Source: Asterochloris sp. CNOR1 (taxonomy: Eukaryota > Chlorophyta > Trebouxiophyceae > Trebouxiales > Trebouxiaceae). From it: 64,000 nt of DNA. The stretch is taken from the NCBI GenBank assembly GCA_963969365.1, contig OZ017753.1, positions 1,364,001-1,428,000 on the forward strand, read 5' to 3'. A model generated the notes under the pieces. It was given only the letters and a program-made list of their open reading frames with translations. It ran no database searches and was not told the DNA's origin. This document shows positions 1 to 56,400 of this stretch, in pieces; within the stretch, counting starts at the first letter, position 1; every line of letters starts with the position of its first letter. A program made the translations under genes and the position numbers.

Positions 1-2162
1 TGCACATCCAGTGTTTGAGTGCCTGGCAACAGCGCTTGGCTTGTCCAGGGAGTCAGAACCCAGCTAGCCCCTGCACCAAAGGGAGCATTTCTCACGGAGC
101 ATTCCTTAGGGAAACTCCACATTGAAGCGGCGCTCACCCTTGCTGATGTGTGGCTGCAGGCGTCCTTTGGCAGCGGCGCAATGAGCGGGGCAGTGGCCAG
201 CGCACAGCCAGTGAATGCTGTGTTAGGAGACCTGCGCTCATCTCTGGGACTGGGCACCCCGATCCAGCGGACCCAGCTGGCCCGCTCCCAGTCAGCCGCC
301 CACGCATGTCTGCTGCGCCCTGGGCAGCAACCTCAGGGCAGCCTGCCAGCTGTCTGGGCGCCTGAGCTGGCGCGCGCCAACTCCCTGCAGGCCACCTTTG
401 CCGAGGCGCAGGCCAGCCTGCTGCAGGCCCAGGCTCAGGCCAAGGGCCTGGCAGGGGTGCCCCCTCGTGTTGGGGGGTCAAAACGCGACTTCGCCTCCAT
501 CTCCACCCTCGGCACCAACGACAGCGTGGCCAGCCACCAGACCGTGGTGCGCAAGGCTGCCTCCCCGTCCCAGGTGAGGTTACTGCTCTGAGGTCGCGCC
601 TGCGCTTGCAGTGCGCGATGCAGCCCCGTCCTTCAAGATATGGTCACACCTGGCATGGTCAGGACCAGTTGAAAGTGCATAGGTCAAGACAGAGGCCAAG
701 ACAAGGGAGCCTTGAGGCCTATAAGGTCCTGGCAACTGCTTCTGTGGTCATCGCATATGCGTGCAGGCAGCCTGCTGGCCCCACCTGCAGGGAAGCTCAT
801 TGCTGAGGGCTGCCTCAGCCCCTGGAGACAGCCTCTGCTACACTTCTTGGCTGCATGATGCGCATGCCAGCTGCAGGGGCAGCAGACCGTCTCGCTGCTG
901 TGCATACTGGAGTCGTGGGGAACCTGGGCGGCATGATGCGCCTGCAGCAGGTCTTGCAGCCACCCCTGAAGGATACCCAACGGTTTCAGCACACATCCAG
1001 TGACAAGCTGCTGATGTTTCTGTGCAGGGAACAGGGGAGCTCTCAGCTGTGGGCTGCCCCTAACCACAACGTCAGCCTCTGCCGACTGGCGCTGCTTGGC
1101 ACTCACCACACACACATGCTGAGTACCTGCAGCCGCACTCTCACAGTGACCACACTCACCTCACTGCCCCACCGCAGGGAACCTCATCGCTGTGGGCTGC
1201 CCCCGCCCCCGAGGACAGCCCCAGCTCACCCGCGCTGGTGGGGCCCCGCCATCGCTACACCACACGCGCTGCCAAGGCCGCTACTGGAGGGGCCGCCCCC
1301 AGCCTGGCATCTCCTGAGGAGGAGGGCAGCGGGGACAGCAGCTTGGGGCTGCCACCCCCCCAGCCAGCTCCCACCAAACGAGGTGAGGTCTTCAGTGCTG
1401 GGCTTGGTGACTTGCAGACTGCTGGCCGGCAGGTGAAGTACGGCTGAGTGGCTCTGTTAATGCACTCAACCTGCACGCTCTCAGGGGATGCAGCAGACAC
1501 GCCCCGATTGCCAGGCTACCATACACAAAGGGCAGCAGTTCAGTGCATAGGCTCCCGTGCAGCATGCTACATGTGCTCAAATGGCAGCTACTCGTTTGCT
1601 GGGCAGCCTTTGCAGTTGGCCTTGCACCGTCGGCCTGCAGGCGCTGCAGTGTGGCTGTAGACTGGAAACCCCCTGTTGTCCTGCAGGTGTCAAGAGTGGG
1701 CCACCACCAGTGTGCCGTAATTGTGGAGTCACATCCACCCCGCAGTGGAGAATTGGCCCTGGTGCGTTGCTCTTGCACCTTGCTGGCCCTCTCTCACTCC
1801 ATGGTGTCTAGGCAAGCATGCCAGCAGTCGCTGTTCCGTCGCATTGCATGCTGTGCTGTCATTTGCTGCGCTGGCATCATGTAAATTGGGCTGAGCTGAG
1901 CCTACTCTGCTGAAAACATGCGTTTTTGTGCGTGCAGAGGGACCGCGCACCCTGTGCAATGCGTGAGTGGTAGTGCTCGTTTGCGGCTTCTGCTCCAAAC
2001 TGCTGCACTATGTCTTGCTGCTTGCTTGCTGCAGCTTGCTGCTTCTGGGGCTCCTTTCTGGCCAGGCGCACCGAGCTTACCAACATGAGACTCCACTCCT
2101 GCAGGTGCGGAGTGCGCTACAAAAAGTGTTTGCCCCTTGCCGATCGGCGGCATGCGCCATAG
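1..2162 (+). CDS. GATA-type zinc-finger transcription factor (5' partial)
   Basis: Exons read as (<19)-573, 1178-1382, 1687-1761, 1938-1962 and 2105-2162 (TAG); the pieces keep one frame. The last three exons build a plant-type GATA finger, CRNC then 18 residues then CNAC, with the usual [20 protein letters not shown] core, followed by only about a dozen residues. It should bind GATA motifs in nuclear DNA. The part before the finger is Ala/Gln/Ser-rich, with a possible helical stretch around AEAQASLLQAQAQAK, and shows no second domain. The frame is closed by a stop at 16-18, so either an upstream exon joins just inside the window or translation starts at the ATG at 181; I cannot decide. The finger being split by two introns, one inside the second Cys pair, is unusual but the frame demands it. 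Target genes are unknown. Confidence 0.85.
781..1221 (+). repeat. Decayed copies of a splice acceptor and exon start inside a GATA-gene intron
   Basis: The intron between 574 and 1177 ends at an acceptor followed by exon 2 (1173-1221). Two earlier stretches, 786-833 and 1023-1060, resemble that junction: each has TGCAGGGA, then a CTCA.. GCTG..GGGCTGCC core. Copy 1 also keeps the later AGACAGCC block. They look like degenerate duplicates of the acceptor plus exon edge. They could act as decoy 3' splice sites. Confidence 0.6.
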
Positions 2163-6302: not shown

Positions 6303-6703
6303 GCCAAGTCAAGACAGTTGTGGGGGCAGGCCATCAAGGAAACATGTGGTGTGGCACTCGTTACCTGCAAATTTGTGTATCTAGCTGATGTCTGTACAGA
6401 GCAGCAGCTGAGCCTGCACAGGTTAAATGATGAACCTTGAGGCTGTGAGGAGCGCAACGCGTGCATGCAGAAGCATGCTGACAGGTGGCTACCTCTCAGT
6501 TGAGGCCTGGTGCTCAGGCACCTCAGGCAAGCTGATCTGGCTGTCAGGCCGAAGTGCATGAAGAGTGTGATGATGAGCAGGAGGAAGGTCAAAGTCTGAC
6601 CAGATCACTCTTTGGAGCAAGGTAGCATGGCATGTTGGCACTGAGGTGCAGGCAGCAACCCCGGATTCTGACCACATCTGGTGTCCGACGGAACCAGGCT
6701 GTA
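6303..6703. promoter_or_regulatory. Shared upstream region of two divergent genes
   Basis: The 401 bases lie between the start codons of glyoxalase II (minus) and thiamin pyrophosphokinase (plus), so both promoters and 5' UTRs must sit here. I see no TATA-like box or other element I can defend, and no riboswitch-like TPP aptamer that I can recognise by eye. Confidence 0.4.
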
Positions 6704-7922: not shown

Positions 7923-8020
7923 TCCTACAAAACGAGGTTAAAGCTTCAAAAACACATTTCAAAGATTTTCCGGCCACAAAGTCATTGAGTGCCCGTAGAT
8001 CTGTTCACCTTGAGTTGTAA
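7903..8020. terminator. Overlapping poly(A) signals of convergent genes
   Basis: TGTAA on the plus strand at 8016-8020 lies 94 bases past the thiamin pyrophosphokinase stop, inside the end of the opposite coding region. TGTAA on the minus strand (plus 7903-7907) lies about 100 bases past the stop of the opposite gene, inside the last thiamin pyrophosphokinase exon. If both are used, the transcripts overlap by over 100 bases. Confidence 0.4.
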
Positions 8021-8241: not shown

Positions 8242-8567
8242 CCCCTCGGATGCACCTGCACAAGGTGCACCCGGCAGTATCTCAGCCAGAAGCAAGAATG
8301 CAGCTGAAGGAAGCTCTGCCGGCTCCACGGCATTGCCAGGACTGTGTGTAGGCAGCAGAGGATTACCAAGCTTCCTGCAAAGCACTAACAGCATGTTCAG
8401 CCACCAACATCTTCACTGCCGCACTGCAGCAGGCATGCAGCCTCATGCCCCACACTGCCTCCATCTTCTTGCATTGCTCTCCAGCCGTCATCATGAATAG
8501 AAACCAGACTTGGACTGCTCAAGAGGAACAGCAGTGCTCACGGCCGAGCAAGCGGCTTGGCCCTTGC
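8242..8567. other. Intergenic stretch between two minus-strand genes
   Basis: This 326-base gap holds the presumed 5' UTR and promoter of the small membrane-protein gene and the 3' UTR of the PDZ gene. I see no other feature in it. Confidence 0.4.
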
Positions 8568-13406: not shown

Positions 13407-14166
13407 GCTGGGTGGCAGCTATCTGCTGGTCTGGCCCTCTTGTCAGGCCTGGTCCACAGGGGAGTTGATCTGCGACTCGTGCTGCACCTGATCTGCAGCC
13501 TGATGCAGCAGACACGACCAACAGCTTCTCTAGCCAAGATCAAACGCTTGTCAGCTCTGTGCAAGATGGAGGGCACTCGAGTACCAGGCCCTTTCCATTC
13601 ATTGGGCTGTCCACACGTAGTGGTTTTGGGAAGGTTCTTACACTTGCCACTGTCTTACAGTCCGCAAACTCCGCGCAGGAGAATCCAACACTACGTGGAC
13701 CTGACCTGCCCACCCAAAGCTTTCCAGGTGATTACCATTGGCAAGGCAGTGCTGAAAACAGTCAGATGACAGTCGTGCCTGCGACAGGCAAAAGTGGGCT
13801 GATCTGCATGCAGCAAGCTGATCTTGACATGCACTTGCAATGGTCTTTGCTGCCACAATGATCGGCACGTCATGTGCTGCAGACCAGCGCTGAGGCAACA
13901 GGTCCATTCTCTGCGGCCAGCAGCGCAAGGCAAAACTGCAATTTGGTAAGGGATTACGAGAGGCACAGCCAGCCTTCAGTGGATGGCAGGCGACACCTAG
14001 CCTGCGCAGTTGCTGGCACCTGCCAGCAGGTCTCTCCTGAGCAGCCGCACGCAGACAGCCGCTCACAGAGCTGTCCCTGCTAGCAGGCCTCTCCTAAGCA
14101 GCCGCACGCGGACACCTGCTCACAGAGCTGTCCCACTCACAGGCCACACTCCTCGAGAAGCTGCAA
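13407..14166. promoter_or_regulatory. Divergent upstream region with a 57-bp tandem repeat
   Basis: The 760 bases lie between the start codons of the proteasome alpha-3 gene and the type I membrane-protein gene. Open frames here carry no recognisable motif. The plus-strand side ends in a 57-bp tandem duplication, listed separately. Confidence 0.4.
14021..14134 (+). repeat. 57-bp direct tandem repeat, two copies
   Basis: Copy 1 spans 14021-14077 and copy 2 spans 14078-14134; they differ at only a few positions and share CTCTCCT, GCAGCCGCACGC and GCTCACAGAGCTGTCCC. The array ends 32 bases before the start codon at 14167, so it lies in the presumed 5' UTR or core promoter of the membrane-protein gene. 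Confidence 0.85.
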
Positions 14167-17100
14167 ATGGCGCAGCCGCGCTGGCTGTGCGGTAGCAGTC
14201 CTGGCAGGCAAAGCGCACTTCAAGTAGCCGTATTGGCCGTTTCGTTGCTGCTGCTGCTGGAACTCCAGCCCGGGGCAGCTCAGACCAACTATACAGTCAA
14301 TCAAGCGTATGATCTGGCCTATGCCTTCTGGTCCAAGGCAGATATCATCTACATCTACGACAGCATTCAGATCACACTGGACAACTTCCCAACGTCTAGC
14401 GTCACGGTGGTAAGCTTGGCCCTGCAGAAGCGGAAAGCGACAGCCACAGCCCATGCTGTGTGCCTGCCTGCACAATGTGAACAAGCTACGCCACCTCGGC
14501 GACAGCAGCAGATGCTGTGTACCTGCAAAATTCTATGCAGGCCATGCTGGCTGCATGATGCAGGGCCCATGCTGTGTGCTCCCCTTACATGTGTGTGAGG
14601 GCAGTGGCAGCTGCATGACAGCCTGAAGGACCGGCTGCATCAACCAGATCTCTTTGACACAAGCACCTGGAGGGCCTTGCACTGACCCCCTCAAGTCAGT
14701 TTCACCGATCCTAGTTCCTGGGCATTTCTCTGGGAGGTACACTGGTGACGTAGGCAGCAGTCAGCAGACACAACCTCTGTGTAGCATGTCCCCCTGACAG
14801 GCTGTCCCCTGCAGGTCAATCATTCAGTGGAGATCAGGCCTCACCCAGCAGTGGAGAACACCACCGTCATATCCATTGACTTTGGCAACCTCATCACCAA
14901 CCGTGTGGTGCTGCAACAGGGCAGTAATGTGACGATCTGTAACCTGCGCATGTGAGTGAATGTTCAGGCCGGCTGTGCAAACTGCCGTGCTGGGCAGGCG
15001 TTCCTGTCACATCGCTTGCCAGGGTTCGTACTGTCAATGAAAATCATGTCATGACAGCTTCACTGCCTGCCTGCTGGCCTGACATCTGGCACAGCTCAGC
15101 CAGCCCTGAGGTGCCTGCACAGTCTGTTGAGCTTACCAGTGCGCGCTGAACACCATGTGGCAGCAGCCAGTGCAATGCTGATGCCGTCCGCCTGACTGGC
15201 AAGATCAATGGAATGTGCATCATTTCATAGCCTTCACCTCGCAAAAGAGTTGGGCAGCCATGTCATGTGCAGCTGCACAGGCCTAGGCCGCCTGACCCTT
15301 TCAGTGGACAGCTGTGTATGGGGCTGCACAGGCATGAGGCACCTGCCTGCTTGGTCTTGCAGCAGGCAATGCTGCACAGCCCCAGCTGTCTGCTGTTCAG
15401 ACTGAAGATGTAATGCCTGCCTTGCACACTGCAGAGTCAATTTTTACTTCCCTGTGACAGAAGACCTGGCAGTGTCGTCCTTTGTCCCCTTCTTCTCTTT
15501 TGATGCCACCAGCAACCTCATCGTGGACAATGACGACTTTGCTGTGGATGCCACGCGGTGTGCCTCCTCCCCTGACTACCCTGCATTTGTGGCCAGCACG
15601 CGCACCCCCTGGCTCATGGCCACGCACCCGGATGTCTTTGAGGGTGAGCCCAGGCTGAACAAGTGCCCAGGCCTTGCATGCTGGGTGCGGGTGTGCTGGG
15701 AGCGCAGGGCAAAGTTCATGAGCCCTGGCCAGCGTGCGCATCCCTGGGCTTGTTCGCCACTCGCCCAGATGTCTTCTTAGGGAGACTGTCAAGCGCTGTG
15801 GTCTTGTGTGCTGGGTGCGTACGGTCAAGTGCATGAGACCTAGCCCGCACACGTGCCTCTAGGCTGACTGGCACACACCCCACATCTTCAGCAGGTGAGG
15901 ACTGGGGCTGCGTTGTAGGAAGCTGCAGATTGCCTGCAGACCGACCTGCTGCAGTCAGACCTGCTGCAGAGCAACAAGGTGGTCCTCCAGGTTGCCAGCA
16001 GAGTCTTGTTGGCCTCTGCGTTTGCCCAGAGCTCTACTCCCTTCAGCAGCAGCTGAGCCCCTGCGCTCCCTACAGGTTACCAGGTGGCTGCCACAAGGCC
16101 CCCTGGGCTGCCTGCGTCAGGCCACATCAGACCTGGCGGAGATCGTGCCCTGCCTGCGTGCTGCTAGAGAATGTTGCTGCCATCCTAAGCAGCCAGCAGC
16201 AGCCAGTGAGCCCTTGCACAGGCTGGACTTTGACTTTTGTCAGCAGCCAAGCCACTGTCTTCCCTGTGCACAAGTCAGTCCAGTCCTGCAGCAGAGCTCC
16301 TGCCCTGCCTGCAGGCTGCCTGGAGAACGACACCTACTACTGCGACTACGCCATCGCCCCCTTGAACTACTTCCGCGCCAACCTGACTACGGTGGTGGGC
16401 GTGCCCACTGCGGGGCAGTGCTTCATCACACTGTGCAGGTGGGTGGGCCCGGGGGTGAACTGGTGCTGAGCATGCTTTGCATGAAAAGTGAGAGCCGTTT
16501 GGGGCCTACATTTTATGACGCTGGGCGCCAGCTTGGGAGGCTCGAGAACCCAGGGGGTAGCCAGTCAGGTTCATCTCCTTTGAGGAAGCAGCTTCCCAGA
16601 AGGGCATCTGGAGCTGTGAGGGATCATGCGCTGCGTAGCCGCAGCAATGCAGATTGTCAGCAGGCAGGTGTGCCAGGGGAAGATGCCTCTACACTACCGT
16701 GGGTGTGCGAACTTACCGCCCTGCACACAGCCTGGGACTGCCTGCAGCCATGACGCCCGGGGAACAGGCGGGTAGACCACTGCCGGAGAACATGGGCAGT
16801 GCCTGCACAGCTGAGAGTCGCATCTCTGCTCACAGCCTAGGCTTTCAATGCTTCTGAGGGGGTGGTGCCTGCTGGGCTGGACGTTGGCATGTGCCTTGCT
16901 GCACCCACGGACGTGCAAGGTCATAGCCTGTACGCACATTGCTCTTTAGCAGTCGGTGGCTGCTGTACTGCCATCTCAACAAGTTACGGCTCACAACCAG
17001 TTTCTGTCCAGCAGCGCCCTGAGAGAGGCGTCGTTTGTGACCAGCTGGCAGCAGAATGTCGCGACTGGGCTGCCTTGCGCTGCAGGTGGACATGCGAGGT

Positions 17101-19489
17101 CACCTCCCTGCCTGTCAGCCTCTATGACATTGTGACGCGGGCCTACACCTCCAACGACATCCTGGTGGCGCTCAGCTACACAGATTCCCGAACCATCTAC
17201 CTCCACGACAACATGACCACCCCCCTGGGCGCATGGGGCCCTGACGACCTGACGGTGGCTAACTTCAGGTGGGCTTGCCCTTGGCCAGGGTCCAGCCGGC
17301 CAGGAGTGGGCTTCTGCATTATGAGAGCTTAAGTCTTGAGAGTACGTGACCTCTGCTGCGTGATGTCCCCCGGCAGCAGACAGCCTACAACAAGTTGCAA
17401 CGGCCCGCTTTGGTGCAGGGGCGCTGCAGTGGCCCATGTTTAACGTGCTGAGGCAATGTCCCAGGGTGGCACACAGGGCCCAGGCCCTTGGGTGCTCAGC
17501 ACCCCTTGCAGCGGCAGGGAAGCTGCAGTAGAAGCAGCACAGGCCCTGTGCAGGCTCGGGACATGCGACGTGCTGCCTGCCTGCATCTGAGGGGGCTGGC
17601 ACCTGAGCAGATTCAGTGGTGCTCCCTGCACATCAGCACTTCGCCCTGCTGCAGAGACATCACATTGGGCGGTGACCCCAGCATGGAGCAGCCCATTCTG
17701 TGGGAAATCGAGGGCGCAGACCTGTTACAAGTTGGCTACGCAGGACTGCTCACCTTCCAGGCAAGCCTTGTCCTGCAGCCAATCTCCCACATGTGCTGGG
17801 TGCCAGCCCGCCAGCTATCATGAGTCTACTGCATCCCAGAACTGGGCTGACCTTAAACCCTGGACACAACCCCGGGACCACCTGCAGCATGGCACTGTCA
17901 CACGCAAGCTGTGCGCAGTTGCCCAGGCATGGTGTTACCTGGCTGTGGCAGCCCGATCAACAGCTGAGTTAAACAAAACGGCTCTGTGTGCCTGCAGGAC
18001 ATGACAGTGTTCCTGCCCAAGCCCTGCTGCAGCCAGATCCCAGACCAGCTGGGAAGCTGGTTCTTCCTGGACGTGGAACTGAACTACCAGGTAATCACAG
18101 GGGACGAGTGCTCATGAGTGCTGCCTGAAGGGTGGGCTGGGAACTGCCACTGCTGAGAGCTGCTGCAGCCCGTCTGAGGTAGCATAGTAGCTGCAGAGCT
18201 GAATCTCCCTTGGAGCTGTTCAAGCACGTCTTGAAGGGCAGCATGTATGGAGCGCCTAGAAGCTGCTCAGCGTCGTCCAACTCTTTGTAAGTGGCTCGTC
18301 AGCAGGGTGTACAGGCTTTGACTCTCTGCTCACAGCTCAGAGCTGCCCTCAGCTCAGCTTGATGCAGCAATCTGCTACCCAGGAACAGCAGCAGATGCTG
18401 GCCTCCTGGCACAACGCACAGCCTTCTTAGACCTCCTCTTCAGCCCTGCAGGTCTTTGATGTGGTGCTGCCCTCAGCTATCAATGTACAGCCTGTGCGGG
18501 TGCCCATCCTGACACTGCCAGCCAAATTTGTGGCCCAGGACGTCCACTTTGTGTACAAGCAGTGCGATGCGGTTGCCTTCCCGGCGGCTGTTGCGCAGCT
18601 GCAGAGCATTGCCAGCCAGCACACGTACAACAGCACCGAGACGCCTCAAGTGTGAGCCCTTGGGTCCCGTCTCTCGGCATGCTGGCTGCTGCAGCATATT
18701 GGCCCAAGTCCAACTCTAGCCCTCCTCTATGTGTGGGCTGCTTGGGCCTTTTGGGGGTGCACCCCTTCACAGGCAGGGAGCAGTCTGCACGAACAGGATG
18801 CCGCAGCAGCTGCCAAGACCCTTGCTGCTCTTCAGGCAGAATTGCAGCACCATTGAGATAGAGTTTGCTGGACATGTGAGCTGCTCTGGCTCCAAGTCAC
18901 AGTCTTGCAAGGTGACATAAAGGTGCTTGGGGGTGCCTTGCAGGTGCAGGTGGGGCAAGTCTGTCCAGCACGCTGACCTGCGGGTGCTGCATGTGGCATG
19001 CGATCCCAACCATCTCCTTTACTGTTGTGCAGGTTCAGCTTTGACAACGAGACCAGCACGCTGACCTGCGAGTACTGCATGTGGCAGGCAGCCCAGCAGC
19101 CGCCAGCCTTCTACCAGGATGCAGTCTCCACAGCTGAGCTGATAAACAGTACGGTCACCTGCCTCAGCTTTGTGATGCCCAGCCCTGACAGCACTGCTGC
19201 AAACGCTAGCGCTGCAGGGGGCAAGGGGCAGCCTAACACTGGCAAGGCTGGGTGGGGCCCCTCCACAGCTGTTGTCGTGGTGGCCGTGCTCATAGCCACA
19301 GCCATTGCAGCTCTGATGGGGTTCATAAGCTGGCGACTGATACGTGCACGGCGCAGGAGCAGAGCTGCTGCAGGGCCCAAAGGCACTCTGGCAGCAGCTC
19401 CCAAGCTGAGGTCGCCTGCCTTCAGCAATGTCCGCAAGTCAGATTCCCTCAGCGAGCTGCAGCACCTGCGCTCCAGCACAGCAGTATAG
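14167..19489 (+). CDS. Type I membrane protein with large Cys-containing ectodomain, unknown family
   Basis: Nine exons, 14167-14409, 14815-14951, 15435-15643, 16315-16438, 17086-17268, 17655-17760, 17998-18090, 18452-18651 and 19033-19489, give 583 residues in frame. Residues 1-39 are a signal peptide (hydrophobic core AVLAVSLLLLLELQ, cleavage probably after GAAQ). The ectodomain of about 460 residues has several N-glycosylation sequons (NYT, NHS, NTT, NVT, NLT, NST), paired cysteines (ENDTYYCDY, KPCCSQ) and beta-rich patterning. A membrane helix follows near residue 510 (TAVVVVAVLIATAIAALMGF), then RLIRARRRSR and a Ser-rich cytosolic tail of about 60 residues. It should sit in the plasma membrane or secretory system. 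I recognise no domain; adhesion or receptor roles are guesses. The intron after 17760 has a GC donor. Confidence 0.75.
18966..19090 (+). repeat. Intronic near-copy of the start of the last exon
   Basis: The intron segment 18966-18999 and the exon segment 19057-19090 are nearly identical over about 33 bases (shared AGCACGCTGACCTGCG, then CTGCATGTGGCA). The copies lie 91 bases apart. The simplest reading is a local duplication of the exon edge into the intron. Confidence 0.8.
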
Positions 19490-37397: not shown

Positions 37398-40300
37398 TCA
37401 TTGCCCGCTGCGGCCTGCCTTGACAGACACAGATCGCGATTTGAGCTGCTGCTGCCCGGCTGCGCCATTGCCATTGGCTGTCCCTGGGTTTGAGTGTGGT
37501 TCGTTGTTGCGCAGGGGCACAGGGCGGATGTCATCTTGTATCTCTTCACCACCTCGCTCTGGCACAGACTTATAGGGTCGGTGCATGTAGCCACTGTAGG
37601 ACTGCAGGCGGCAGCGTGAGCGCTCACTTGGTGGGCAGGTATACCTTGTTGCAAGAGCTCCTGGTCTCACTATGGCATACAGGCCAACTTGAATGCTGTG
37701 ACTGAACCCAGAGCAGCGCCAACAAATGGGAGCCATGTTGTCTCACCAGCTCAGACTGCCAGGCTACCATTACTATGCAGCAGTGTGACAGGCCAGCAGT
37801 GCTGGATTTGCCTGACATGCACAGTAAGCTGGGCTGGCAGCAGAAGGGGCGCCAATGCTGCATTCAGAACAGGCTTGCGAACTTCAGCCCTGCATAAGAG
37901 ATCAACCACCCCTGCCTGGCCCCACCTGGCGGGGTCTGGAGATTTTGCTGAGCTTTTCCTCTGCCATCTCCTTCCACTGCGACACCCACCCCACAGTCCG
38001 AGCCACAGCAAACAGCACAGTATACCTGTAAGAGCAGGGCAGCTTGATGTGCTTCGCTGCTGTGCTGATACTGGCTTTCAGGCACTGCAGAGCCAACATC
38101 AGAGGCCAGAAGCCAGTCAGCGTCGCTTAGCTTGAACCTGCGCAGTGCCCTGCCAACTGTGCCGACAGTGATGAGCAGGGCAGGCTGCAGCAGGGCGGGC
38201 TGGACATTGAGCATCAGGCTGTGACCTAGCTCACAGATACAGTCTGCACATGCTCGACATTGCACAGCTGGCTGCTGCAGAACCTAGACAGGGGCCAGCT
38301 GCCCAGCTCACATGGCAGGAATGCCTGTGAACTGTATCAAGCACCTCCTGGTGCCATGCAGACGCCAAGTAGGCTGGTGGCCAGCTCACATGCTGATGCC
38401 AAACAGCAGACCAGGCCCTGGCGCCTTGGCTCACATGGTGATTGGGTGTCCATGGCCCCCTGCAAGCTGGTCAGGCACGCTCTGCTAATGCGCAAATTAC
38501 ACAACAACCTGCAGCTCGACTCACATGCTGACTGGGATGCCCATAGCCCTCAGCACAATGCCGGAGAAGAAGTCCACATTGGGGTACAGGCCGCGCTTGA
38601 CAAAGTATTCATCATGAGTGGCAATGTGCTCAAGCTCCATGGCAATCTCCAGGAGAGGATCATTCCTGCGACAGACACCAGGTGTACTTGAGGCAGGCGC
38701 CCTTTTCTGCCTTGACAAGCATGGCGGCAGTCTCTGGCTGCAGCGGGCATCTGTGGGAGTCAGCAAGACAGTGAGGGGTGTCCCTCCTTGCAGAATGTAG
38801 GGCAGCTGCTTGAGCATTGCTGCACAGGATATCCTGATGTACCTGCCTAGTTGAGGCATGCCAGCTTCTCCAGCGATGCTGGCCTGTGCTGTGCAGCACT
38901 CCCAGTAGCGGAGAGGCCTTCAGTGCAGCCGCGCTAGCTGACCTTGGGTGTGAGCAGCTGGTCAGATGTCAAACACTGCACCAGATGACAAGCAGCTCAC
39001 TGAATATTGAGGTGCTCCAGAAGCTTGTGGCAGGTCTCTTTCATGATCTTTGCGCGGGGGTCAAAGGTCTTGTAGACCCTGTGCCCAAAGCCCATCAGCC
39101 TACAGCAGGCCAACCGCTGAGAGTCAGCTTGCTGGCAATCTAGTTGTGAGGTTTGTGCTGCTGCGCCTGTGCGGCATTCTGCCCAGACGCTGTTGGTGCA
39201 TGTTGACTGCAGGGCAGGACAGTGCAGAAACAGGTAGATGAGGCAGAACACTCAACAGGAGTGTTGCTGTCTCTGTCGCAGTGCATCACAGGAAGCATTG
39301 TCAGGGGATGGAGTGCTCTCCTCCTTCTGCAGGGCAGCCCAGAGCAGCAACGGGCAGGCAAGGGGACAAGCCCAAGCTGAAGTGGCCACGCCTGTCATCA
39401 TGCATTGCAGCGCAGCGATCGGCAGGGCAGGCACAGAGGCACCCCTGGAGGGATGTCAATGCTATGAGGGATCGCACAGCAACATAACCCAGGGCACACC
39501 TGAAGGGGTCACTCTTGTCCTTTGCCCGCGCCAATGCCTCTGGGATTTTGTCCTTGGTCCCGATGGTCTTCAGCATGCTCAACACAGCCTCATTGGCACC
39601 ACCGTGCGCCGGACCCCACAGGGCTGCGATGCCAGAGGCAATGCAGGCAAAGGGGTTGGCCTGGCTGGACCCTGTACCAAATACCCACACATCAGATGCT
39701 GGCTGTCCCCACGGCATGAGTCACCGACATACAGGGCACAGCAGCAAGCCTGCCTGGCTGCTGCAGGCGAGCGCAGCCTGCAGGAACAGCACATTTGCAA
39801 CACCATCGCGCAATACCAGGTCACGGCAGGCCACATGATACCACATTGTCTCCAGTGTCAGCCCTCTGCAGCCCGCATGGCAGCAGGCTGCCCAGAGCCC
39901 AGGGTCTCGAGACCAGCTCCTACTGGACGTGTGCAGCAAGAGCATTGAGGCAGAGACAATGCTCACCAGCCACCCGCACAGTTGATGTGGAGGCGTTCTG
40001 CTCATGGTCCATGTGCAAAATCAAGATGACCTCCAGGGCACGAGCCATCACGGGGTCCACCTGCAAAGGAAATGCCTAGTCAGTCTCTGGCGGATGGTCA
40101 CTGGGGGTGAGCAGCTCCACGGCGCTTATGAGCGATCTTCGACCAGCGATTTGCAAGGCCCTGTGCCATCAAGTGCGGCTGGAGATTGAGGTCACCCACC
40201 TGGTACTTCTCTGAGGGGATGGCAAACATCATGTGCAGGAAGTTCTCTGCATACGACAGGTCATTCCTAGGGTAGACGATGGGCTGCCCTGTAGGACACA

Positions 40301-44444: not shown

Positions 44445-47400
44445 TCAGAGGGCTGGCTGGGACGGCATTAGCAGCCGAATGGCAGATGTCATGGTCAAGT
44501 TGGGCACCAGCTCTGTGTGGGGCAGCGGCTTGTTGCTGACAGGGGAGACTGTTTCACTCTGGAACCACTTCTGAATGGCGCTGCGCTCATACTGCATCCA
44601 GGAAGGGGGCAGCAGGCTTCACAGGTGGCCGCCCCACACATGGCCCTGGCACTCAAGTTCCACTGAGCAATCTGAAAATCATGAGCCACGCTTGGCGGCT
44701 CTGTGAGCAAGGCACCCCTTGATGCTCCTGGACTTCCTCAATGGCAGCACAGAGGCGAATCCCTCGGCTGTGTGGCATCAACAAGTACGATTATCGCCGC
44801 TGAGCAACACTGGACAGGGCACCATGCCGAGCCCGTCTGTCACACAACACATCCACCTGTCACTCGACATACCACACCATGTCTCTGCTGTCCAGCGGCA
44901 CCAGCATGTCCTGCTCACAGCAAGGCCCCACCGCTGGCTCGCTCACTGGGTCCATCACTGCCCAGATTGCTCCCATGTAAGTCTTGCAAGAGGCAGCCAG
45001 GCTTCTCACCGTGTAGCCGTCGCTGGCCACCACTGGGTCCATCATCAGCGTCTTTGTAATGGGGCAGGCCAGGCCGTATATTTGGGCCATATGGTTTAAC
45101 TCGGCACTGCCTGGGCGCCCGGCCACACTGCGTGTGCGATCCAGTGCGGATGGGCTGGCAACACCTGCGCAGAGAGCATGTGGAGGCTGCGTGCAGCTCT
45201 GACTTGGTGGACACTCAAGCTCAGGACCTGGCTGCGCGAGGAGCATGCGAATGCTGCATTTGCACGCTGGCCAATGCAAATCTGTGGCAGGCTGCAACGG
45301 GAAGCGGCCCATACAGAACGCAGGTCACGACACTTGATGGCCGTCAGGTGGTCCCATGCTGAGACTCCCGCACAGACAGCTGTGTCAAACAAGCACCGCA
45401 AACCAGTGACAGCGAGCCTGCCGCTTGCCTGGAGAGCTGCTTGCCGCGCTGGGCCAGGCAGCGCGCAGCGCATCCAGGCTGCCGCCAGGGGCCTCCTGCC
45501 CACCCCCGCCCCCATTGCCGTTGCTGCCCCAGATCTCGCTGAGGAAGGGCAGCGCCCCGCTGGGCTGGCCCCCAGAGGGCGCCTGAGCGCCGCTCATGGT
45601 GGCGGGAAAGGCTGTTGCAGGTGCAGACTCAGGGGGGTGGCTGCGCGCCATCCCCATCTGCCTGCCCTGCCCCTGCCCTGAGCTGTACTGGTGGCCCCCC
45701 TGCGGCTGCTGGTGCTGCTGCCTCTGTGGGGCCTGGGGCTGCTGCATCTGCCCGCTCAGCATGCCCTGCTGCGCGGGCAGGGCCGTCTGCGGGCGGGCGA
45801 TGGCCCCACCGTTCGCCCCCGCCACCATGAAGCCTGTGGTGGCTGGTGGAGCTGCCCCGTTGGCCCGCGGGAAGGGCTGGGGCTGGGACTGCCCCAAGCT
45901 GTTGCCACGGAACAGGTCCCCAGAGCCCTCCATGCTGAAGGCCTTGTGGCCTTGCCCCTGCAGCTGCGTGGTCACCCCGGCTGATGAAGGGTGCCCTGTG
46001 CTGGCAGCCGCAATGACCGGGCTGCCCCCATTGCTGAGCTGCTCCAGGTTGCCTGCAGCAGGGGAGAGGCGATCAGTCTGAGGGTCCTTTGCTCCTGATC
46101 GCAGCCACTGCTGCTTGCATTGAGCCATCTGGGAGCAAGCAGGCATGCTGTCAGCTGAGGAACCATGCTTCAGTATGTCCTTTGCTGCATGCTCTGGCAC
46201 GATCAGCAGAGGGGAGGCAGGATGCTAACCACACAGCCGCCTGGCACGCCGGGGAGGTGGGTGCAGTACATGATGATTTCCTGCTGTGCCATCCCTGACG
46301 CCCTGGGCAAGCCTTCGGCTCACCTGCAGAAGAGGTGCGTCCAAAAGAGTTGCCGCGCTGCCCCGAGAATGCCCAGTCGGGGCGCCCTCCCCCCGCAGCC
46401 AGCAGCGGCTGCCACACCTGCGCCCGCGAGGCCAGGGCCTCAATCTGGTGCTGCATGTGCACCGGGTCGAGGGAGGCCTGGAAGGGCGGCGCCCCCACCC
46501 TCAGCTGGGCCCTGCCCTGCTGCATGGGCGCCTGCGCCAGCCCCGTCTGCTGCTGCTGCCGCAAGGGCAGCCCCTGGTGCAGGTGGGGCAGGTGGCTGGT
46601 GGCCAGCTCGGGTGGTGGCCGCCCCCCAGCCAAGGCTGGGTGGCTTGGGGCTCCCTGCTGCATGGTTGCCAGCTGCTGCGCCGGCTGCTGGTGGCCCACC
46701 ACGGGACTGGCAGCCTGTCGCGCGTGCAGCTCGGCAGGCTGGGCCTCCTGGCGCGCAGACGGTGGCTGGGACGGGACCAGTGCCGCTGGGGTCTGGCCGG
46801 GGGCCGGCTGGTGCGCCTGCCAGGTGCGCTGGTGCCCCTGGCCGGCTGCCTGGCCGACAGGCGGTCCTGCAACCGCAGCGCTGTAGTTCACAGGCTGCTG
46901 ACGGGGTGCAGGCGTCGGGGCCTCACTCGCCCTCACAGAGGGTGCCTGGGACGCAGGCTGCGCCTGTGGCTGCGGCTGCTGCCGCGGCGGCGGCGTCGGC
47001 TTCTGCAGCGGCCGCGTGCTGGCAGCAGCTGCGCCTGCAGCCTCACCAGCAGGCCGCTGCTGCTGCCCAGCCCTGGCCCCTGCAGGCTGCTCTCCTGTGG
47101 CCTGTGGGGCAGAGACTTGCTGCTTGTTCCCCCGGCCGCGCGACGTTCTGCCCCCTTCGTGCTGGGGGGAGGCCGGCACCGAGGGTGCGCCCTGCCCTGC
47201 CCTTGCCCCCCCACGCTTCTGCCCGGACACCTGCTGGAAGGGAGCGCCCCCGTCCTGAGCACCCCCCGCCTGTCCCCTGCCGCTGGATCCGGCCTCGCCA
47301 GCCTTCCCTCCGCCCTGAGCTGCGCGCCTGGCTGCCCGTTCTTGGCGAGAGGTCTGCGCAGTGCCAGCGGGGCCTTCGCGCGGGACAGCACCAGCCTGGC

Positions 47401-50400
47401 GGCTGCGTTGTGGGGCCGCCGCAGCGGCAGCTTGCCCAGCGCCTGCACTGCGCCCTTGCTGCTGTCTGCGGCTGGAGGGCTCTGCTTGGACCTCGTCCCA
47501 GTCTGCAGGCGGCCACAAAGCCTTGCTGAGCTGCTAGCTAGTGCTGCATGAGGCGGCAGAGGTGTGACAAGCATTTGCGGACAGGCTGGCCATGACCTGT
47601 GGCCGCGATCGACACATCTGAATGCTGCAGAGCACCAACAGGAGGCCTGTGGCCACCAAATGAGCAGCAGGCTGCAAAAGAGCGACACCATGGAAGCTAC
47701 CTGCTACAGGGCAGCATGCAAGATGACGCAGCTCAGCAAGCAACTCCCTGAGTCGTCCTGGCAAGGACTGCTGGGGCCACCCACAGCACGTGAAGGCTGA
47801 CCTGTGCGGCTGCCATCCTTCTGGCCTGCACGGTCCAGCTTCATCTGCTGCAGGTAGCTGGCTAGGGCAGCACTGTCTGAGACATGCCCGTCCTCCCCGT
47901 CAGCCTGCACAGCAGCCCCGGGTACCATCTGAGGGGTGTCAGCCACGTCTGGGATGCGAGTGCATTAAGTCTGCCACCATGTGTGCAGCTGCCAGCGCTC
48001 CGCACCAGGCCAGCAGATGTGCACTGCTAGGAGTATCTGGAAGCAGTTTGTTCACTCCTGAGAGAGTCTGCGACCTTGCTGGCACGATGCACCCGCCATA
48101 GAGCGCCAACACAGGCAGAATTCAGGGTTTGCCGTTCTGGTTGGTATTGGCATGCATGTGCATGCAGCCAGATGCAGCAATTGGGAACATGTGCTGGCAG
48201 GCATGTGGCGCGGGCAAGGTGTGATGCCTGGTTCAACTGCTCACCTTTGCCTCCCTGGACGCCTTGGCCTTGCGCCCCCTCTGCTTTGCCCCACTGCCCG
48301 CACCACCCGCCCCAGCGGCCGCAGACTCAGCGGGCGGCTGCAAGCCGCTGACCGCTGCTCCTGTCGAGCGTGCAGATTCAGTAAGGGAGTGCTTGCCCTG
48401 TGGGCTCTCAGCCGCCACAGCAACAACAGAATTCTCGAATGCTGGCGGTGCAGGGCTGGACCGCGCGGGAGAGGCGCCAGACTCCCCCTCGGGCTCAACT
48501 TCCACCTCAGAGGCATCTGCTGGGCTGCCGTCTGCCTCCTCGGCGGACGTCTTCTTCTGCTTCTTGCGCCGCTCCTTCTTCTTCGCCTTCTTCCGCTCCT
48601 GCTGCTCCTGCATGCACGTGGATGGAGTCAGCACTATGTCCAGCAGCAGGTGACGCTGCTCCTGAAAGCGCTCCGTGCATGACAGCACCCTGCAGGAAGG
48701 ATGTCAGTTGCTGGCTGTGCAATGCAGGAATGAAGGCAGCCAGCTGCAGGCAATCTGTGCTGTCCACCTGACTCCATCTTGAGGGGCAGGTGGAGCCAAT
48801 GACCCTCCACCTGGGGTCTACCAAGATGGGCATACCAAGCCGAAAGCGCTTCGCAGCGGAGCAAAGGCAAAGCTTCAGCCCCTGGCAGCACACCTTGAGA
48901 GCATCCTCCTCCTCCAGAAGCTTGGCCATGTTGGCGTTGGCAGCCTTCTCAGCAGCTGCCCGCTCCTCCTCACTGGCCTGTGCAGTGACTGGCGCCGCCT
49001 TGCCGACGGGGGCTGCTGCCCCCACAGCCGCGGGCTGCCCTCGTGTGGAAGCCCCCTTGACCCGCTGCCTCTCCCGACTTTCTGCCAGACGCAGACGCCC
49101 CTCCACATAGCTTGCCCTGCAAGGCAGCAGTCCAGCTTGATGGGTGCCCCTCACATGCAGCAATTCTCTGCCAGTAGTAGGCGGCCTCTCACACAGCTTG
49201 CCCTGCAGTGTAACATGCCAGCCAAGGGAGTATCAGGTGCTGATATGCAGCTGATGTTGCCAAATGGAGGTGCATCTCCCTCATGGCTTGCCCTGCACCA
49301 GGTGGGAAGTGAGCAGCACAGAGCGTACCGCATGGGAAACAGGACAAAGCAGCTTTAGATTGAAGCAGACAGCCACCCTCTACATCGCTAGCCGTGCAGC
49401 AGCAAGGCTTCCATGAGAGCCTGCACAAGCTGTTGCCGGGCTTACAAGAGAAGGCCATGATACATGCTACAAAGCATGGGCCTCAGCCGCACAACAATGT
49501 GGTGCAACAGTAACAGCTGCAGAGCCATCACATGAACAATGTTGACAGGAGGCGACTGACGCTGCATGCTGGGTCTGCCAACACAGCAAGCCAGGGGTTG
49601 CATGGGCTTTGCAAATACAGGAGCATGTGCTGCCAGCAAAGCGCCAAACAATGCAGACCCTGCTGACTGACTCACTTGAAGCTGGACTTGCGGCAGATCA
49701 TCTTGATCACGTCGCAGTCTGCCTTGCTACGGTAGCTGGCCCCATACTGCACCAGGCGGAGCACGGCCTCAAAATGCCCGCACGCCGCCGCAGAGTGCAC
49801 TGCTGTCCAGGACTTAGAGTTTTTGATGTGGTGGTCTGCCCCCGCCGCCAGCATGGCCTCCACCACCTCTGTGTGGCCTGCACATGTAGTCAGGCTCATC
49901 GCTCAGGAGGCTGGATCCTGATGAGCAGGCAAAAGGCTGATTTGACAAGAGCTGCCACAGCCTTGCCACAGATGATGCTTGTCTGTCCAGGGCTCAGCAT
50001 GGTGCAATGCGGCAGGATATAAGCAGCCAGTACTGCATCCGATGTAGGCACAAACAAGTGGTCGCAAAAAGCCAGCCGGGCAACGTGGTGTGCAGCCCGA
50101 TGGGCTTGCTTGGGCCTATCTGGGCACTCCTCCCCCATGCAGCCCACCTTTTGATGCAGCCACATGGAGGGCGGTGTTGCCGTTGCTATTCTGGATGTCG
50201 CAGTCACAGTGCAAAGCCAGGGCCTCTGCTGCCTCATGGTGGCCATTGGAGGCTGCATTGTGTAGCGGGGTGGACCCATTCTGTGCCTGCAGGGCAGTGT
50301 CAAGGTCATGAACACCAGACATCGCTGCCAATCCCCCTATAAGCTTCAAAGCGCCCGCAACTTCATCAGAGGAGCTCATGTTGCATGTTTGGCCAGGTGT

Positions 50401-53400
50401 GATGGCTCAGGCTCTGGTGAGGCAGCATCTCACCTGAACATCAGGATCTGCCCCGGCATCCAACAACCTTGCAACGACAGCAGCATGACCATTGGTGGCT
50501 GCTGCATGCAGAGCTGTGGCTCCTGTAGTGGTGGGAGTGTCCACTGCACTGCCAGCCCCAAGCAGGAGATCTGCGCACTCCAAGTATCCTGCAGCAGATG
50601 ACGGTGAATGACTAGCAAAGACGTGAGCACATGCAGCCACTCTACCAGCTTGACAGTGAGGCCGCAGAGTGGCTGCACAGGCGTTTTAGCTCAACTGCTG
50701 GTGGGGCAACAGCTGCACAGGGCAGAGTGGCCGTGTGTGACAGCTTCAGCCAAGCTACAACAGCCCTTGATGCAGACGCTGTAAGCTATGTGCGAGGAAG
50801 CACCCTCACCTCCTGTCGCAGCATTGTACAGAGCACTGGCGCTGCCCAAGGTGTGGATGTTGACGTTGCAGTTGGCTGCAATAAGGAGGCGCATCACATC
50901 TGCATGGCCACTGCTGGCAGCATTGTGCAGAGCTGTGGAGCCGTTGGAGGTCTTCAAATTGACCTGCAGCCAGGCATGGGTGTCAGACGCAAGCAGTGCT
51001 GACTGCATGACTAGACGCTTGCTGCACATGTGTTCTTGTGTGTCAGATACAAGCAGTGCTGATTGGATGGCTTCATGCATGCCCAGCTTCTGTTCCTTTG
51101 CCCTCCGTGGGTTTGCTATGCATGAAGTTGTGAGGAGGGGCAGCTGTTGTTGAGTACTGACACTTGAGTGGTAGCGTGAGAGCATGCCCAGCTTTTTGTT
51201 TAGACGGGCTCAGATGTCGTGCCTCTACCAACAGCACTGGTGACTGGGGTGCTGAGTGCCAGCCAGCAGGCAAGCACCAGAAGTGAGCTGGGAGGGGAAA
51301 GGGGCAGTGATGCCTGTGCCCAAGGCAACAGCTTGCCAGGGTCTGGGAGGGCCAGTTTGCAGAAACCCTGCACACTGTGCAACTCACCTCAGCACCCGCC
51401 TCCAGCAGCTTCTGCACTACTGCAGCATGCCCATTGGAAGATGCCTCATGCAGCGCCGTCCACCCATCATTGGTCAGTGCGTCCACGTTGCACTTGGCAG
51501 AGATGAGGGCGTCAATGATCTCCAGCAGGCCTGCAGGAGAGATCATCCCAGCATCACGATTGCAGCACAAATGAATGACCACCTGCATCATGTATGCAAC
51601 TTTGTATGCTGCCCAGCACAACCCCGTGTGACACTGCAGCCCCATAGCCCTTAAGGCAAAGTTGACCCCTAAAAGCTGCCAGCGTGAGGCAGCTCCTACC
51701 CTCTGTGAGCCAGCCCTCAGGCATGCTGCAGACATCACACAGCTGTGCCACAGGACACAGCAGCCGCTATGTACATGACCCTGGACGATTGGCGCCAGCC
51801 TGTTGGATCACAGCAGAGCGGCCAGTGGCGAGGCAGCAGCCGCACCTTTGGAGGCTGCCCAGTGCAGCGGAGTGAGCCCATCCACATCTCGCGGCGACAC
51901 CTCGCAGCCCGGCGTCTGCAGCAGTTGGCGGACCAGGTCCATCATGCAGTGCTGCGTGGCCAGGTGCAGCGCTGTGTAGCCCTTCTCGTCCTTGTTCCTG
52001 GCGCTGTCCAGGATCTTGGCCACAACATCATGGTTCCCATTGTCAGCCGCCAACTGTGCTGCCGTCAAGCCATCTGCATCCTGCAGGCCAGGCAGAGCGG
52101 GGTGCTTGGTGCCAGTGTTGAGGCAGTCTAGGCAGATCAGATTGTCGCCTGCCAGGCTTTGAGAGAGCTAAGGCACAGCTGCACGCTCCATGTTCTCTTA
52201 AAGAATGGGCCCAGCACCTCCCTGAGGGTGCTCCCATTGCTTGTCCAGTCGCTGCCAGTTGCTGCATGCAGTCATGGCAGCCAGGGGTGGCACACGTGCG
52301 GCGTGAGAGCAGCCAACTGCATGTCAAGCAGCGGATGAAGCCTGCACCAACTTGGCTGATGCAGCATGCCTGTGTCGCAAAGTGTAGCATGTTCAGGCCT
52401 TGCCTGCAGGTGGACATCAACCCCAGCATCCAACATGGCAGCCACCAGCACGCCTGCTGCGTCGGCGTGTCCCTGCTCAGCTGCCCAGTGCAGCGCAGTC
52501 CGGCTGCGTGAGTCGCACTGCTCCACCGGTGAGCCCAGGCTCAGCAGCTTGCCAACCACCAGGGCATGTCCACCTGCAGACAAGATGCTTGCTGCTGAGG
52601 GGCAAATCGTCTTCCGACCGCCGCAGACAATGGCACTCCATTCGAGGCGACAACGCCTGCCTGTCCAATCAGGCATGCATAGCCTCTACTGAGCCAGTCA
52701 GCCAAGTGGACATCCCTACATGTGCTCACATACATGTAAGGGACAGGTGGCTGCCCAAAAGTGACCCACCTGCTGCTGCCCAGAACATGGGTGGCCAGCA
52801 GTTGGCATCAATGTCATGAACGGAAAGCTGAAGACTTATCAAGCGCTCCACGATGGCCAGGTTGCCAGACTCTGCAGAGCAGGGACACCTCAATCAGCGC
52901 TGGCCACCGTGTAAAGCAAGCACGGCATACTCTACTGTCATGCAAATGGCTCCGGCCCAGAATAGCAGACATGCTCAAGGAGACCACACCTGCTGCACAC
53001 TGCAGCGCTGAGCAGCCCTGAATCATAGGCTTGAAAGGACTCCCCACCTGCTGCATAGTGCAGGGCTGAGCAGCCATGGCCATCAATGGCCTGGGCATCT
53101 GCTCCGGCGCCCAGCAGCATCTCTGCGCACTGCAGATGGTTCACGCTGCTAGCAATTGCAATGGCACTGCAGGTCGTGGCACATGGCCCCTCATCCTCCC
53201 CAGCGTCGCCCTTGGCAGCACAGTGCAGGGCCGTCCTGCACAGCAGGGGCCACATAAGAGTGATTTGAAAACACAAGGATCACGGCAAACAGGAGTGACC
53301 ACCTCATGCACCCCTAAGCAACACACCCAGGGCAAAGAGCAGCAGGTTTAGTAGAGGCAAGAAACACAGCAAAGCTGGCATATAGATGATGTCGAGAACC

Positions 53401-56400
53401 CACATGGAGCCAGCTTTGAGCAGCCTTCAAACTCACCTGCCATCACTGGCCACTGTTGAGGCCTTGTAGCCTGCCTTCAGCAAAAAGGGCAGCAGATCAA
53501 TATGTCCCTTATGCGCTGCTAGGTGGAGCGGCGTGAAGCTCTCACGTCCAGTGTCTGCCATGCCATGGCCAGTGAAGAGCAGAATGCCCACAATGTCTGC
53601 ACTGCCACCCATCACAGCATGGTGCAGCACTGTGTAGCCTGCAGAGCAGCAGACAAAGCTGATGTTGGAGCCATGCATGAACACGGAAGACAACCAGCTG
53701 CTGATGCCAGATGCATGTGTGCTAGCCCATGTGGTGCTCTGCAGGCATGCTTCAGGGCACGCACTGCAGGCAGCCTTCAGTGCACACAGATTGCGAGGGC
53801 CGGCTGGACTGCATGCTTGAGGAGGGATGAGGCGGTGGCGCACCCTTAGCATCTGCGCCCTGCACGTTGCACCCAGGGTGGCTGTACAGAGCCGTGAAAA
53901 GCTCCATGTCTGGCTCCTCAACTGCGTAGTGCAGGGAGCAGCACCCAGTCGCATCCTTCAGGCTGCCATCAGCCCCTGCCTGCAGCAGGACTTGGACGAC
54001 CGGCACATGCAGGTTCTTGGCTGCCAGGTGCAAGGGGGTGAACCCCTGCACGCTGGAAGCATTGACCTCGGCCCCAGCCTGCAGGCACACAGATGTAGCT
54101 TGAGGGCACTCTGCCACGTGCCAGGTGGGTTTTGCTTTGAACAGCTACAGCAGCGAGGCTTATGCAAGGCCCAAGGCTGACCCAGCCACGCAGGGTTAGG
54201 TCAGGGACAGGCAGGTGTTAGGACAGGTTAGTCTGATGTGAAAGCAGGGCTGACCTGCAGCAGCAGTTGCACAACCTCCACGCTGCCCTGCTCTGCAGCA
54301 TTGTGCAGAGCCGTCCAACCCTCCTCATCGCCACCGTTGACCAGCTCAGCATCTGCCTGCTGCAGCAGGCGTTGCATGACGGCAGCATGGCCCCACTCTG
54401 CTGCAGCGTGCAGGGCTGAGTAGCCATCCAGCGTGACTGCACGGATGTCTGCTCCCCTCTCGAGCAGGAAATCGACAATCTCAGCAGAGCCTGCAAGGGG
54501 AGTCAAGCTTGAGCTGAGCTGAGATATGAGGCCACGGCGCAGGACAGCAGCAAAACAGAATGCACTGTGTGAACCATCAAGGGTAACAGCCAGGTATGTC
54601 TTGCCACCTTACAGAACAAGCACAAGCAGCTGCAGTCATGATGGTTACAAAACAGGCTGGCCAGCACCATGTGTCAGGTCACACGCCATGGCTGCTAAGG
54701 GATGACCTAAGCAGGTCCTCGCACATGCGGCAGCAACTCACCTGCTCTGGCTGCAAAGGACAGGGCAGTGCAGCCCGGGCGGTTGCCCTTCTGGATGTCT
54801 ATTCCCATCTCAGCCATCATCTTGATGTTGGCAAAGTTACCGCCCTCCGCAGCTGCGTGCCACGCTGAGCTCCCCTCCTGGTCTGTGTCCTCCAGCTGGC
54901 AGCCCAGCTCAAGAAAGCGCTGCATCATCTTGGGGAAGCCACCTGCAGTAGTAGCTTGTTAGATGCCATTGGAGTGAAACATGTAAAGGACAGGCAGAAC
55001 AAGGGTTGCATGGCCCCGTGCAGACTGCTCATCAGCTCTGCCTCACATGCACCCCATGATGCTGCATTGTGCTGAAAAGTTCCTGCATGGGGGTCACCTG
55101 CAATGGTGGGCTGGTCTTCCGCATGGCATAATCCAAGCACAAGCTGGCCACAGGGTACACAGTCTGGCACACAAGCTGCGCACAAGAGGCAGCAATCTGC
55201 GGTCTGCTAAAGCCAGTTGCGTGCACAAGTCTGGCATATGTGGCAGCAACCTAACAACAGCAGCAATGCCACCTGCTGCGCTGTGGCAAGCATGGCAGCC
55301 TCCACGGTATTGCAGCCAGCACCCATTAGGGTGCCTTGTAGCTTTGCTGAACATGACAACATGTAGCATGCTGCAGCTAAGCACCATCTGAGGCAGCTTT
55401 TTGTCTGAGCAGCATCTTCTAGATGTCGTAAAGCAGCATGCGATGCCTTGGTGCTTGCTACAGAACTTTGAAAGCCTGAGCCAGACAGCCAGCAAAGCGC
55501 ATCACACTGCTGGCCTGCTGCATGGTGGCCGAGGGACAGCTGCCATGTTCAGGCACACTTGAGATCCAGGAGGGACCAAGAATGGCACAGCATCACGCTG
55601 TGTTCTGGGGAGCGCTTCTGCCTCCAGGTCCAGGCACAGCTCTCTAACAGCGGCAAAGTGCAACAGTGTGCGCCAGCCACACAGTGGCCAGGGCGTTGGC
55701 ACCTGGTCCAGGCATTTACGTGGCAGTTTGCAGCACCCTTTGGAGACATCAGCAGCAAAAGGGCTGAGACAGAGCATCTGAGACAGGTCCAGCCAGTGAC
55801 CCACCAAAGGCAGCAAAGTGCAGCACGCTGCGCCCCAACTGCGTCGTAGCCAGAGGGTCAGCCCCCAGGTCCAGGCACTCCTCCACCAGCTCGAGACTAC
55901 TGCCCTGCGCTGCGCTGTGCAGCACCGTGACCCCAGCGTCGTCCGCGCAGAGCGCTGAGCAGCCAGCCTCCAACAGGCGCTCAAAAATCTCTGCGTGCCC
56001 ACCCTCAGCAGCGCACTGCAGCGCCGTGCAGCCCCGGTGATCCAGGAGCTTGGCATCAGCGCCAGCCTCCAGCAGCTTGTGCACCATCTGCAGGCAGAGA
56101 AGGGTTAGACGTGTAGTGGGGCAATTATTTTGAAGCCCGCCGGTTGCTGGCAAGGGCAAGTTGGCGCCAACCTTCAGCAGCTGGTGCACCATCTGCAAGC
56201 AGAGAGGGGATGGCTTTGCAGCGTTGCCATGGGCAACAGCCAGCTGCAGGCAACTGCGGCGAGGGCAATTGCAATTTGACATCAGCCTCCAGCAGCTTGT
56301 GCAGCATTTGCAGGCAGGGGTGCAGGGGTGAGAGCATCAGAAAGCCAGCAGCAGTCCAGCCCAAAGATGCAACAGCGTCCGGCCATCTGGACTTTCATTG

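Follow-up and report, generated by a model that had tools for sequence, protein, structure and literature searches.

Why do introns carry worn copies of their own splice borders, and does this mean that introns grow from their edges? The question is raised by a 64 kb stretch of the green alga Asterochloris sp. CNOR1 (contig OZ017753.1, positions 1,364,001 to 1,428,000), hereafter the window, within which all counts and introns below fall. In at least eight introns of five genes in this stretch, an original prediction had described degenerate copies of a splice site together with part of the adjoining exon. Such copies are confirmed here as real. They probably represent the most visible class of many small local duplications that fall in exons, introns and borders, lengthen the introns, and are revealed by conserved exon edges.

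Gene structures were obtained with a self-training ab initio gene finder written for the analysis and are predictions from the sequence alone. At the working stringency (-6), 104 exons and 98 introns were predicted with consensus donors CAG/GTGAGC and acceptors CCTGCAG/G. Runs with a weak penalty produced many tiny exons and were dropped, and a stringency of -8 gave a sparse set (46 exons). For each border, a query of 60 exon and 15 intron bases was compared with the intron it adjoins and with each of the 97 others. The intron at 18653-19032 in a membrane-protein gene escaped the finder and was delimited by eye; it stands outside the 98 introns and inside the simulation labels and the locus count described below.

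At a score of at least 30, seven of 98 acceptors and seven of 98 donors matched their own intron. The matches involve 12 distinct introns, or about one in eight. From the 9506 non-own pairs per border type, of which 6 and 10 reached the same score, 0.06 acceptor and 0.10 donor matches were expected. The copies of a border lie in its own intron, donors and acceptors are both affected as had been claimed, and the copies match their own neighbour, unlike introners. Introns across the other side of the same exon scored 28 at best and never 30 in 184 comparisons. Across stringencies of -5, -6 and -7, acceptor matches at score 30 were 4/90, 7/88 and 7/79 and donor matches 5/90, 7/88 and 7/79; these counts leave out introns not exceeding 60 bases and introns next to an exon shorter than 30 bases (88 of 98 left at -6). 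Dinucleotide-shuffled own introns predicted 0.00-0.20 matches at the three stringencies, and inverted own introns gave 0 border matches at any of them.

A BLAST comparison of the window with itself placed its seven strongest direct repeats at 15-1000 bases exclusively at previously described places and, combined with the border alignments, recovered local copies in all eight of the named introns. BLAST overlooked the strongest tandem (14019-14134), which was recovered by Tandem Repeats Finder (TRF) and by a purpose-written local scan. An assembly error or collapsed alleles could in principle create false local copies; however, the copies are approximately 65-94% identical, mutually different and found at many offsets, and such an origin is hardly credible.

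The original prediction suggested that introns grow by duplication of their borders. The introns do hold local duplications, but specificity for borders is not shown, as intron interiors and exons are duplicated too. The strongest pair in the local scan is a 57-base tandem duplication (14019-14134, plus strand; TRF score 190, 89% matches) that touches no predicted exon and lies near the start of the membrane-protein gene in either an intron or a leader. Two further duplications, both on the minus strand, lie within single exons (26602-26892 and 46515-46693) and are in frame with offsets of 162 and 138 bases, or 54 and 46 codons. The chance that both offsets are multiples of three is one in nine. 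Direct local pairs at 18-400 bases with a score of at least 34 numbered 24, compared to 0.69 expected from far offsets; at score 28 there were 53 pairs with about 5 expected by chance. Of the 42457 intron bases, 1366 fall in detected pairs at score 34 and 2345 do so at score 28. The 32 offsets observed at score 32 range from 33 to 387 with 23 of them between 55 and 162, and all three remainders after division by three are present (12, 13 and 7).

When 60-base pieces were matched to sequence at most 350 bases away at score 30, hits were found for 25 of 550 pieces in exons, 22 of 450 at junctions, 86 of 1808 in introns and 9 of 354 elsewhere; the far-sequence rates were 0.12%, 0.22%, 0.08% and 0.05%, respectively. 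The exon and intron pieces include partners of border copies, and this tiling alone cannot separate duplication at borders from duplication elsewhere. A follow-up considered the 85 of 98 introns without a border match and, of these, the 54 of at least 260 bases. Among their interior pieces, 13 of 1031 matched their own intron at score 30, compared to 0.012% for other introns. Thus, local duplication is not confined to borders.

The prominence of borders may be understood in terms of how long a pair remains visible. Border copies should be recognisable longer than purely intronic pairs because the exon copy is conserved, and this persistence of exon-paired copies is probably why they were seen mainly at borders in the first place. 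At score 34, the pairs form 18 clusters, of which 11 touch a border, four lie in introns only and three are exon-exon; two of the four intron-only clusters (25497 and 28595) are copies of border copies. Among the 15 non-exonic loci, 11 count as border loci, and 9 do so under a strict definition requiring at least 8 exon bases. In a simulation, duplications were placed at random and then decayed, and the border share was counted. At a constant rate, units of 55-160 bases gave a simulated share of 0.38-0.44 and units of 55-110 bases one of 0.30-0.38 (strict: 0.26-0.41). By age, the share was 0.36 for young events, 0.58 at 0.23 substitutions per site and 0.86 at 0.28, and the observed 11 of 15 is compatible with a share of 0.58 (p = 0.17). 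When 12 units were compared with their own copies, the exon parts were 0.76 identical and the intron parts 0.63, with wrong-offset controls of 0.58 and 0.57. From the exon-part identity, ages near 0.2-0.25 fit. Most of the emphasis on borders is what detection bias predicts at approximately 0.2-0.3 substitutions per site.

The same counts bear on a second explanation, in which duplication is targeted to exon-intron borders, for instance by breaks or polymerase pausing, and introns grow mainly from their own edges. The share of 11 of 15 exceeds the 30-44% seen at a constant rate, introns with a border match are richer in internal matches, and serial copies occur in several introns, including 15644-16314 in which both ends are copied. 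On the other hand, two of the 11 clusters are barely border-touching (29837 by about six and 58796 by about one exon base), the strict share is weaker, internal duplications reach score 30 in four introns without border copies, and the excess loses significance if the events date back 0.23 substitutions per site. Targeting is unlikely on this balance. Just as improbable is its extension to the lineage as a whole, with introns lengthening mainly by serial edge duplication, borders acting as hot spots for 55-160-base tandems, and competing splice sites being silenced later. A real border preference, roughly two- to four-fold in odds, may nevertheless exist.

Several points weigh against small local duplications falling in exons, introns and borders alike. 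Under constant-rate shares of 0.33-0.44, 11 of 15 has p = 0.002-0.02, and for the strict count of 9 the range is p = 0.006-0.11 at shares of 0.26-0.41; unless borders are in fact somewhat preferred, the account requires that most events be old. The numbers are small with only 15 non-exonic loci. The exon extents were taken from the best alignments, which inflates exon identity, while the intron halves, taken one by one, match no better than many of the wrong offsets do (e.g. 44/62 and 45/72), so that full tandem units are shown at a few loci only. The 13 interior pieces come from just four of the 54 introns, the 14019 tandem accounting for five of the pieces, and interior matches are six times as frequent (28/343) in the 13 introns with a border match at score 28. 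This last contrast may in part be due to border copies matching each other, it may also reflect hot spots, and it slightly lowers confidence in the account and raises that in targeting. Inverted local matches at score 30 occur in 0.9% of junction pieces versus 0.2% in far sequence, a small and unexplained difference; none was found in exon, intron or other pieces. Lastly, the gene models are the analysis's own ab initio predictions and the ankyrin gene supplies five of the 12 introns.

If duplication without regard to borders is accepted, the following course of events may be proposed. Small local duplications, some head to tail and spaced mainly 55-162 bases apart, would strike exons, introns and borders alike. 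In exons, frame-preserving duplications would be the only survivors, as the two cases suggest. When an event crosses a border, the splice site beside the intact exon would remain in use, the surplus copy would stay intronic, and the intron would lengthen. The intronic copy would then decay neutrally while the exon copy is kept by selection. Break repair with fill-in and end joining is the likeliest molecular origin. The joints of 14019-14134 and 29837-29954, which were read by eye at these two loci only, share approximately 0-2 bases as end joining after fill-in leaves; two loci do not establish the mechanism. Copies are adjacent, judged by offset versus unit length, clearly at 14019 (57/59) and 29837 (60/58) and nearly so at 52977 (58/44). 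At most other loci, the intron part is too decayed for adjacency to be judged. In plants, repair of staggered nicks reportedly yields short tandem duplications, according to Schiml and colleagues, and Zhuo and colleagues are said to have described human tandem-array introns.

The class of mutation is known; what is of interest is that intronic border copies seem locally so dense and that exons can be used as frozen references. Short head-to-tail duplications have been described as the commonest short insertions (<100 bp) of the human genome and as contributors to its expansion, and in human and mouse cells small tandem duplications are made at staggered breaks by CST-Pol alpha fill-in and end joining (PMC8355091). 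The duplications of the window resemble these in being short and head to tail, but they are old sequence footprints only, many exceed 100 bases, and joints are readable at two loci. In the potato RNA-dependent RNA polymerase gene, a tandem duplication across an intron-exon boundary made a new intron, with RNA reads and relatives as proof, and the same gene has an 83-base tandem duplication within an intron (PMC4974935). In contrast, the copies of the window appear to have stayed within an intron that already existed. In vertebrates, duplication of nearby DNA during repair likewise produces local copies containing splice sites and parts of exons (PMC2671141). That set was found via interrupted transposons, excluded copies within 50 bases and had four partial exon/intron donors among 824 human events, and its counts cannot be set directly against a dozen introns in 64 kb. 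A study of short direct repeats close to splice sites, in which the two ends of an intron are compared, gives a mean length of 11.4 bp (PMC11782384); these repeats likewise lie at intron-exon borders, whereas one border is here compared with its own intron. No report of green-algal intron growth by border duplication was found in the literature searched, which is weak evidence given that subscription papers were poorly covered.

Intron gain by duplication of an AGGT-bearing segment (the Rogers model, reviewed in PMC3443670 and treated for Drosophila in PMC2891723) similarly involves gene segments with splice motifs that are duplicated in tandem. Its signature would place a repeat of the upstream exon's end in the 3' part of the intron and a repeat of the downstream exon's start in the 5' part; it was sought in the last and first 150 bases of the 50 introns longer than 300 bases at score 28 and was found in 0 of 50 at each end. 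The suggestion that introns perhaps also arise by border duplication is thus not borne out by this classical signature. Two near misses were noted: a donor match at 50287 in the ankyrin gene that lies 160-209 bases from the far end, and a donor at 51531 with a score of 27. No introner-like sharing among unrelated introns is apparent in the window, where BLAST gives only 8 direct repeats of score 40 that lie at least 1.6 kb apart.

The condition of the copies is informative with regard to their function. Copy-versus-exon mismatches are even over the codon positions (34/214, 47/212 and 40/212; p = 0.33; 16 alignments at 11 borders), and the copies therefore decay like non-coding DNA. Duplicated coding or alternative exons were considered as a candidate and rejected on the same evenness. 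The copies could instead be retained as functional decoy or alternative splice sites that give unproductive or alternative transcripts. Of the 16 alignments, 11 extend as far as the splice site, and nine of these preserve the copied AG or GT, a count that is not far above what 70-80% identity would lead one to expect, although no formal test was made. Of seven copied acceptors tested, six would introduce a stop if used. The exception is the copy at 56164-56230 of the 56088 acceptor, which would add 105 bases in frame and without a stop. With no codon-position bias and mostly ruinous acceptors, retention as decoys is very improbable.

It had also been proposed that a site may be copied several times and that copies farther from the exon are more decayed. 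Serial copies are indeed seen, although several second or third copies, such as that at 38252-38325 (64%) and the third ones in the 22438 and 56088 introns (64%), are individually unconvincing. There is no clear gradient of decay. At least two alignments are available for 16 of the 17 borders aligned; ten could be judged by eye, with about five each way, and in the remaining six the signal was too faint or mixed. The farther copy is the less decayed one at 574, 56088, 28554, 21589 and 54943.

The individual introns may be considered by gene. For the GATA gene intron (574-1177, plus strand), the acceptor border matches its own intron at score 65, which ranks first among the 98 introns compared with it. 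This border is copied at about 778-843 (82% of 66) and 1032-1108 (69% of 77, gapped), and BLAST pairs 778-839 with 1166-1226 (82% of 62). In the hand-annotated membrane-protein intron (18653-19032, plus strand), the following exon (19033-19489, read by eye with one frame open) is copied at 18965-19001, paired by BLAST with 19053-19089 (92% of 37, offset 88). The copy of exon sequence described there is present, but the aligned part begins 20 bases inside the exon and does not include the acceptor. By eye, a CAGGT is found 89 bases ahead of the real acceptor, one base off the 88-base offset. Beyond the eight named introns, five more reach score 30, two of them doubtful. One of the five lies in the membrane-protein gene (15644-16314, plus strand) and has a donor copy at 15726-15819 (70% of 102) and acceptor copies at 16111-16171 and 16020-16084 (72% and 69%), with scores of 37 and 30.

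In the EF-Ts gene on the minus strand, the intron at 22438-22875 has acceptor copies at 22499-22553 (82%) and 22605-22652 (73%), the former also found by BLAST (22398-22453 versus 22499-22553, 82% of 56). This border is ungapped in a match to EF-Ts 1aip, in an alignment that extends only about five residues beyond it. The intron at 28554-29200 has acceptor copies at 28614-28679 (71%) and 28715-28750 (75%) relative to the exon; BLAST pairs 28500-28573 with 28610-28679 (72% of 74), and the copies resemble each other at 28595-28637 and 28691-28733 (86% of 43). In the intron at 29422-29948, the donor carries an adjoining 60-base tandem copy, 29837-29894 and 29897-29954 (TRF score 171; 83% of 58), which includes only about six exon bases (exon share 0.10). 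By eye, near-identical donors lie 60 bases apart in 29889-29948 with the interval open in frame, and splicing at the inner donor would lengthen the protein by 20 residues. Another of the five new introns (21589-22277) has donor-side copies at 22071-22115 (78%) and 22170-22217 (71%). A weaker intron at 24890-25803 has border scores of only 28 and 27, with a donor-side copy at 25497-25573 (69% of 80) that was recopied at 25600-25668; the two copies are 75% alike over 69 bases. The citrate synthase intron (38026-38524, minus strand) has a donor copy at 38373-38464 (70% of 96, gapped) and a weaker one at 38252-38325 (64% of 78). BLAST pairs 38430-38464 with 38520-38555 (81% of 36), and the border is ungapped in a match to the citrate synthase structure 4e6y.

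The large ankyrin gene, also on the minus strand, requires separate consideration since similarity among its exons is expected. The intron at 49117-49675 has acceptor copies near 49185-49222, 49258-49297 and 49362-49404 (79%, 75% and 78%; BLAST pair 49081-49121 versus 49167-49207, 78% of 41). The intron at 56088-56663 has acceptor copies at 56164-56230 (78% of 67) and 56283-56333 (82% of 51), with BLAST pairs 56059-56104 versus 56164-56209 (89% of 46) and 56063-56097 versus 56283-56317 (94% of 35). The remaining three of the five new introns are found here. At 52574-53047, a donor copy lies at 52977-53020 with an offset of 58 (score 53, rank 1). The intron at 54943-55804 is doubtful, as its donor-side copies at 55473-55556 (73% of 88) and 55611-55714 (68% of 108) could be worn ankyrin exons. 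Also doubtful is the intron at 50287-51387, which is 1101 bases long and resembles both neighbouring exons (scores 32 and 32); its stretches, by eye similar to ankyrin coding sequence, are probably worn or unpredicted ankyrin exons. Loss or non-prediction of ankyrin exons might by extension explain the copies throughout this gene as protein repeats, which concerns five of the 12 introns, and Pfam places ankyrin domains in it. Yet the matches enter intron sequence by 38 bases at 56088 and 20 at 49117, and seven of the 12 introns, plus the hand-annotated one, lie outside the gene. For the gene as a whole, this explanation is possible but doubtful.

Where copies do derive from local duplication, exon edges kept by selection serve as reference copies and offer a simple gauge of the rate of intron growth by local duplication. 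A comparison of intron against intron misses growth once both copies have decayed. If the density of 12 in 98 holds genome-wide, small duplication would be a countable source of intron sequence and a steady source of potential competing splice sites.

The genes that harbor these introns were recognized by eye from their predicted proteins, which include a proteasome-like subunit, a glyoxalase-like enzyme, the membrane protein, citrate synthase and importin alpha, along with ribosomal protein S17, the large ankyrin protein and an S1-S1-EF-Ts-EF-Ts protein. Pfam supports the GATA finger, S17e, S1 and ankyrin domains and gave no match for the membrane-protein piece. When viral and genome contigs were searched for relatives with the importin-alpha protein, 3 and 12 stretches fit a pattern, respectively, and none was a relative. 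The region 19806-31200 on the minus strand is predicted as a single gene whose product appears to have two S1 domains ahead of two EF-Ts domains. A gene with two S1 and two EF-Ts domains is typical of green algae and plants.

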